DNA of 64,000 bases from Chitinophagales bacterium (GTDB lineage Bacteria > Bacteroidota > Bacteroidia > Chitinophagales > UBA10324). Both the position numbers and the translations under genes were made by a program. The stretch is from contig JACDDS010000013.1 of assembly GCA_013816805.1 (NCBI GenBank), positions 1 through 64,000 of the forward strand. The letters run 5' to 3'. Below, in pieces: positions 48,007 through 48,702 of the stretch; position 1 is the stretch's first letter, and the number at the start of each line of letters is the position of its first letter. Under the pieces are notes generated by a model. That model was not told the DNA's origin. It ran no database searches and worked only from the letters and a program-made list of their open reading frames with translations.

Positions 48007-48702
48007 ATGTTTTCCGAAATAAAATTCACAGAAAAAATAAATTCCATTATTGAAAGTAAAAGCCTTTTAGATCATCCGTTTTATCAAAAATGGAATGAAG
48101 GAACGCTTTCTAAAGAAATGCTTTGTGAATATGCTAAACAGTACTATCATTTTGTAAAACATTTTCCGCGTTTTGTAAGCGCAGTTCACTCCAATTGTGA
48201 TGACATCGGCGCAAGGAAAATATTAATGGAAAACCTGGCCGATGAGGAAGGATTTAAAACAGGAACCGATAATCACCCTCAATTATGGATGAACTTTGCA
48301 GCCAGCTTAGGCCTCACGGCCGAAGAGGTGAAAGCAACTCAGCCCCTGAAAGAAACAGAACAACTGGTGCAGCAGATGTATGAGCTCACCTCATCATCTT
48401 TTTACATTACAGGGCTATCCGCTTTGTATGCCTATGAATTCCAGGTACCTGAAATTTCTAAAACCAAAATTAAGGGACTTAAGGACTTTTACGGAATAAA
48501 TTCAGAGAAAGCTATTGAATTTTTTAGTGTTCATGAAGAAGCAGATGTGGTTCATTCAAGAGATGAAATTAATATTATCCTGAGGGAAACGAGAACAGAG
48601 GAAAGTCAAAATGCAGTATTGAATGGAGCTGAGAAATCAGCCACAGCTATGTGGGTTTTTCTTGATGGAATTTATAACAATTATTGCACTGCATCAGCCT
48701 GA
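48007..48702 (+). CDS. CADD-family protein, probable self-sacrificing p-aminobenzoate synthase
   Basis: 231 residues with the all-helical heme-oxygenase/TenA-like fold. The metal-ligand pattern of the CADD group of heme-oxygenase-like dimetal oxidases is present: Glu80/81 with His90 ('DEEGFKTGTDNHPQLW'), Glu144 in 'YAYEF', and His176, Asp180 and His183 in 'VHEEADVVHS'. Chlamydial CADD makes p-aminobenzoate from one of its own tyrosines, bypassing PabABC; here Tyr26 ('HPFYQKW') and Lys154 fall near the implicated positions (alignment by eye). A role in folate synthesis follows. TenA thiaminase is the main alternative, but the length and His-x3-Asp-x2-His spacing favour CADD. Confidence 0.82.
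   Translation: MFSEIKFTEKINSIIESKSLLDHPFYQKWNEGTLSKEMLCEYAKQYYHFVKHFPRFVSAVHSNCDDIGARKILMENLADEEGFKTGTDNHPQLWMNFAASLGLTAEEVKATQPLKETEQLVQQMYELTSSSFYITGLSALYAYEFQVPEISKTKIKGLKDFYGINSEKAIEFFSVHEEADVVHSRDEINIILRETRTEESQNAVLNGAEKSATAMWVFLDGIYNNYCTASA

Follow-up and report, generated by a model that had tools for sequence, protein, structure and literature searches.

Within the window, the 64,000-nucleotide stretch of Chitinophagales DNA analysed here, the reading frame at 48007-48702 on the forward strand was intact, running from an ATG start to a TGA stop and encoding a protein of 231 amino acids (Table 1). A profile search matched this protein to NCBIfam TIGR04305 (fol_rel_CADD) at 279.7 bits (E 1.4e-83), above the curated cut-off of 200 bits, and comparison of the frame with that of L123, its closest measurable relative, indicated purifying selection (dN 0.29; dS 2.5, near saturation). 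Its best sequence matches in the PDB were CT610 (1rcw) and a 4-aminobenzoate synthase (9pj4), both at about 175 bits (E ~1e-50); the CT610 8va9 set was also near 1e-50, and the matches that followed were weaker by about 40 orders of magnitude. An AlphaFold2 model (pLDDT 95.9, pTM 0.92) had CADD (1rcw) as its best match in the PDB, with a Z score of 32.2 and an rmsd of 1.2 over 214 residues at 39% identity. The original prediction of a CADD-type homologue at this position, for which a structural comparison with CADD had been proposed as a check, was therefore borne out by both profile and fold. PqqC, TenA, BesC and UndA of the HDO superfamily share with the window protein the fold and a general dimetal site, but differ in having small-molecule substrates and, where a model exists, in profile scores far under the cut-off (for BesC, NF042919, 55.3 bits against 500). 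A PQQ synthase of the PqqC type, or a thiaminase II of the TenA type, wrongly taken for CADD would fit the common heme-oxygenase-like fold, the weak scores against the PqqC (TIGR02111, 60.4 bits) and TenA (TIGR04306, 30.3 bits) profiles, and the place of PqqC as runner-up in the structural search (Z 28.3). However, cut-offs for these two profiles are 240 and 130 bits, and CADD matched the model with a smaller rmsd than PqqC and at over double its 15% identity. Membership in either family was rejected, with next to no probability left to it, and the clear grouping with TenA/PqqC that would have counted against the original prediction was not seen. A shared fold by itself would not settle function, and the residue set weighs more.

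Table 1. Coordinates of the CADD-family gene, its key codons and the compact CADD-like genes found elsewhere in the order
Feature	Position	Strand	Basis
ORF, CADD-family (TIGR04305) predicted self-sacrificing p-aminobenzoate synthase	48007..48702	+	Profile, alignment, fold
Tyr26 codon, predicted sacrificial tyrosine (NePabS Tyr25, CADD Tyr27)	48082..48084	+	Alignments; role PMC11965152
Tyr42 and Tyr46 (NePabS Tyr41, essential; Tyr45, proposed radical relay)	48130..48144	+	Alignments; roles PMC11965152
Metal ligands Glu80 (48244-48246) and His90 (48274-48276)	48244..48276	+	Alignment
Trp94 (NePabS Trp99, proposed radical relay)	48286..48288	+	Alignments; role PMC11965152
Tyr143 (CADD Tyr141, NePabS Phe148; affects metal choice) and ligand Glu144	48433..48438	+	Alignment; role PMC11965152
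Lys154 codon, predicted sacrificial amine donor (NePabS Lys159, CADD Lys152)	48466..48468	+	Alignments; role PMC11965152
Phe172 (48520-48522; CADD Tyr170, NePabS Phe177) and ligands His176, Asp180, His183	48520..48555	+	Alignment
Compact CADD-like genes (outside the window)	L026:1318-1899, L025:1318-1899, L027:1306-1905, L028:1474-2064		
Compact CADD-like genes (outside the window)	L029:1489-2064, L034:1486-2070, L023:1492-2043, L024:1501-2052		

To assess residue conservation, 28 proteins of the CADD family, drawn from many phyla, were aligned. The six metal-binding residues (E80, H90, E144, H176, D180 and H183; three histidines and three carboxylates) were invariant in all 28 rows, as were Tyr26 and Lys154, which aligned with the sacrificial residues of CT610 and 9pj4, and Y42, Y46 and W94. 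The original prediction had correctly placed Glu144, the His176-x3-Asp180-x2-His183 spacing and candidate Tyr26 and Lys154, and had overlooked E80, H90, Y42, Y46 and W94, all of which proved equally invariant. Self-sacrificing p-aminobenzoate (pABA) chemistry is carried out by characterised relatives (PMC11965152; review PMC13108848), in which the residues consumed are Tyr25 and Lys159 of NePabS and Tyr27 and Lys152 of CADD; in NePabS, Tyr41 is essential, and Tyr45 and Trp99 are likely radical relays (PMC11965152). By analogy with these enzymes, the dimetal centre of the window protein would activate O2, and an oxidising hole would move via the aromatic residues Y143, W94 and Y46 to Tyr26, the CA-CB bond of which would be cleaved to leave a glycine behind. 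The freed ring would then be oxidised to a carboxylate using oxygen that derives from O2, with the amine supplied by Lys154, yielding one pABA per protein molecule for use by the dihydropteroate synthase FolP. The same analogy with characterised enzymes underlies the predicted pABA-making activity of the window protein, its proposed catalysis, its putative metals and its presumed role in vivo. An enzyme destroyed by making a single product molecule looks wasteful beside the catalytic PabABC pathway.

Metal preference in this family is set by two positions, NePabS Phe148/CADD Tyr141 and NePabS Phe177/CADD Tyr170, and the F148Y variant of NePabS was active with Fe/Fe as well as with Mn/Fe (PMC11965152). 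The metal-adjacent pair of the window protein was Tyr143/Phe172, half CADD and half NePabS. Since Tyr143 resembles CADD and Phe172 resembles NePabS, the combination present in the variant that takes both metal sets, the window enzyme may be metal-tolerant, accepting either Fe/Fe or Mn/Fe.

The genome to which the window belongs is 3.57 Mb in 31 contigs, with an estimated completeness of 100 and contamination of 0.33%. A search for pabA, pabB and pabC, suggested alongside the original prediction, returned no pabABC set, only TrpE and IlvE. Absence of PabB and PabC was judged from profile searches of the genome: the single chorismate-binding (PF00425) protein scored best as TrpE, carried the motif PIAGT and was encoded inside a complete trpEGDCFBA operon, and the single class-IV aminotransferase (PF01063) was IlvE, the branched-chain aminotransferase, so neither PabB (a PF00425 protein with P[IM]KGT) nor a PabC-level aminotransferase (best score 44.9 bits, with the cut-off at 176.85) was found. 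The lysine of P[IM]KGT is taken to be one that PabB needs. TrpE and TrpG might nonetheless also make aminodeoxychorismate, with IlvE giving the lyase activity and CADD being accessory, and TrpG-type amidotransferases can indeed serve both synthases (NCBIfam subfamily trpG_papA). Against this, the TrpE motif was PIAGT, unlike the P[IM]KGT present in all PabB proteins recovered from relatives, and no aminotransferase approached the PabC level; we consider such dual use highly unlikely. Of the folate genes, folP, encoding the dihydropteroate synthase that consumes pABA, was the one looked at and was present, so pABA is needed for folate here. Folate genes adjoining the window gene were looked for and none were found. 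With PabB and PabC absent, folP kept and the sacrificial Tyr and Lys kept, the suggestion that this organism may make folate without PabABC gained support, and the window gene very likely codes for a self-sacrificing pABA synthase like CADD and NePabS; no other source of pABA was found in the genome. As a separate observation, MenF isochorismate synthase was not found either, TrpE being the only PF00425 protein (G000:C20; L002, L004); any menaquinone made would have to come by a different route, for instance futalosine.

Among the 16 genomes of the family, CADD was present in this genome only, and the other 15 all had a TIGR00553 match (PabB homologue) and no CADD. Eight of those 15 proteins were read and all had the PabB motif; the match in G004 was a fragment only. 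Because CADD stands cleanly in the place of PabB/PabC in this ordinary-sized genome while all same-family relatives carry PabB homologues, the probable displacement is directly testable. This was also the only one of 396 genomes of the order to exceed the TIGR04305 cut-off, as did 27 of 375 genomes in a sample of the phylum. CADD proteins in genomes of this phylum were identical to those of named Ignavibacteria and Bacteroidetes MAGs, which puts the host of the window in Bacteroidota in the broad GTDB sense. For sixteen of the 26 other phylum carriers TIGR00553 gave no match at all; a further seven were counted as having none since they were absent among the matches listed. Of the 26 other CADD carriers in this GTDB phylum sample, about 23 thus had no PabB/TrpE-type match, compared with at most 7 of ~338 non-carriers (Fisher p ~3e-27, a value that ignores the shared ancestry of the genomes). 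The mutual exclusion of CADD and PabB is not absolute: G661 combined CADD with a PabB-level TIGR00553 match (6.2e-89), and G656 and G678 combined it with weaker matches.

Compact, divergent CADD-like proteins of 184-200 amino acids, traced from weak TIGR04305 matches (70-108 bits, under the cut-off of 200), occurred in seven of the order's genomes (G018, G038, G050, G194, G240 with two copies, G290 and G374); a search for this family on plasmids found nothing. They keep HPFYxxW, the Tyr41 equivalent, HxxxW and an AFExQQP...K stretch with the sacrificial Lys, so that both sacrificial residues (Tyr and Lys) are retained, together with the relay Trp and the Tyr that is essential in NePabS (Tyr41). 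In six compact proteins the last metal ligand was changed from His to Glu followed by Pro (H-x2-D-x2-E-P), while in one branch (L023, L024, L118 and L119) it was still His, and the metal-adjacent pair was Phe/Tyr, the reverse of the Tyr/Phe in the window protein. A model of L026 (pLDDT 95.4) also had CADD as its best match (Z 24.0, rmsd 2.1), with the metal-bearing helix broken at the changed ligand. All seven compact carriers were without PabB and kept folP; four had a PIAGT TrpE as their only PF00425 protein and three had no PF00425 protein. The PabB motif was present in congeners without the compact gene, four of genus g76 and three of g132; one further g132 congener, G306, had neither. In family f20 (132 genomes, counted by hand), all four carriers were PabB-less, an outcome with a chance probability of ~6e-6 to 6e-5. 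The compact proteins support a general association of PabB loss with the sacrificial pair; we lean towards regarding them as another form of self-sacrificing pABA synthase, one in which the metal site differs. With CADD as Tyr/Tyr, NePabS as Phe/Phe, the window protein as Tyr/Phe and the compact family as Phe/Tyr, there is a complete natural set for the question of Mn/Fe versus Fe/Fe. The second copy in G240 (L034) lay between two genes of the class I/II aminotransferase fold (PF00155), possibly in a biosynthetic cluster that uses pABA.

The order also contained full-length CADD-like oxidases (L016-L020 and L022) in which the sacrificial Tyr was missing, mostly with HPFL in place of HPFY. These formed a separate clade, their host genomes mostly had PabB-level matches, and they are a useful negative control for the link between sacrificial residues and PabB loss. 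Four genomes of the order (G184, G258, G306 and G386) were PabB-less and had neither CADD nor a compact relative; because such genomes exist, PabB loss alone is no proof of replacement. PabB calls in many genomes of the order are by score only. The window's host might likewise be a pABA/folate auxotroph salvaging pABA, its CADD homologue having drifted to another oxidase function, and these four genomes, as well as the want of folate neighbours around the window gene, are in keeping with this. This is improbable, however, as the pABA-specific Tyr26, Tyr42 and Lys154 stayed invariant while most of the sequence diverged, PabB loss tracked proteins that keep the sacrificial residues and not the Tyr-less oxidases, and folP was retained. 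Two further genomes of the order (G067 and G077) and two of the phylum (G486 and G563) also had no PabB-level match and no CADD or compact gene; PabB-less, CADD-less genomes could belong to auxotrophs or use yet another pABA route.

The nearest homologues of the window protein were in Ignavibacteria MAGs (L120-L128), at 64-66% identity, and shared with it an EEG[FY]KT insert, seen in the window protein as three additional residues (FKT) in the Glu80-His90 loop. A tree set the window protein among these homologues, with no firm support for its exact neighbour. Gene neighbourhoods differed: no gene order was common to the window flanks and the Ignavibacteria loci, and no folate genes were found around the examined homologue loci, those of Ignavibacteria included, which instead carried a CoA-binding protein beside the CADD gene. 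Closest homologues in Ignavibacteria could also mean that the contig came from a contaminating organism akin to Ignavibacteria, the genome itself being without CADD. Yet the tetranucleotide signature of window positions 40-60 kb correlated with the trp-operon contig of its own genome at r 0.74, compared with 0.26-0.52 for the Ignavibacteria loci, and neither the flanking gene order nor the low estimated contamination fits a foreign contig. Contamination was rejected as exceedingly unlikely. Because the nearest relatives of the gene lie in Ignavibacteria, the simplest reading is that it probably arrived by horizontal transfer, from that group or a relative, the donor not being fixed, with PabB lost afterwards. 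When the window ORFs were compared with 800 kb from G005, another genome of the family, only nine matches at ~40% identity were obtained, too diverged for the insertion site to be recognised.

Among known systems, CADD/CT610 of Chlamydia trachomatis shares with the window protein the fold, the six metal ligands, the sacrificial Tyr and Lys, and the Tyr at CADD Tyr141; at 39% identity, the window protein differs in having Phe172 for Tyr170 and an insert of three residues between Glu80 and His90. The CT610 gene clusters with folABKP (PMC1971073), whereas the window gene has no such linkage to folate genes. NePabS (NE1434) of Nitrosomonas europaea resembles it in the residue set, the Phe at Phe177 and a free-living host (PMC11965152), but has Phe148 where the window protein has Tyr143, making the latter a mixed Tyr/Phe pair. 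A GTDB scan recovered 382 related loci in many phyla, and the best 80 of the 382 included cyanobacteria, Kapabacteria, Marinimicrobia, Myxococcota and marine archaea; putative homologues have been reported in Wolbachia, Rickettsia, Chloroflexi, Sphingomonas and Nitrosomonas (PMC11965152). The original prediction was right to place the homologue outside Chlamydia, but as a novelty this fails, given these loci and the characterised N. europaea enzyme (PMC11965152). Earlier publications already describe the family, its chemistry and a member from a free-living bacterium; the clean replacement of PabB/PabC, the natural Tyr143/Phe172 pair and the compact divergent family in the order are new. Annotation from pabABC only would wrongly label such organisms as pABA auxotrophs. 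Among the archaeal loci, L151:5992-6681 and L190:5980-6678, from Marine Group III/Poseidoniia, were CADD-proper genes with all key residues, each adjoining a gene of the Fe-ADH family.
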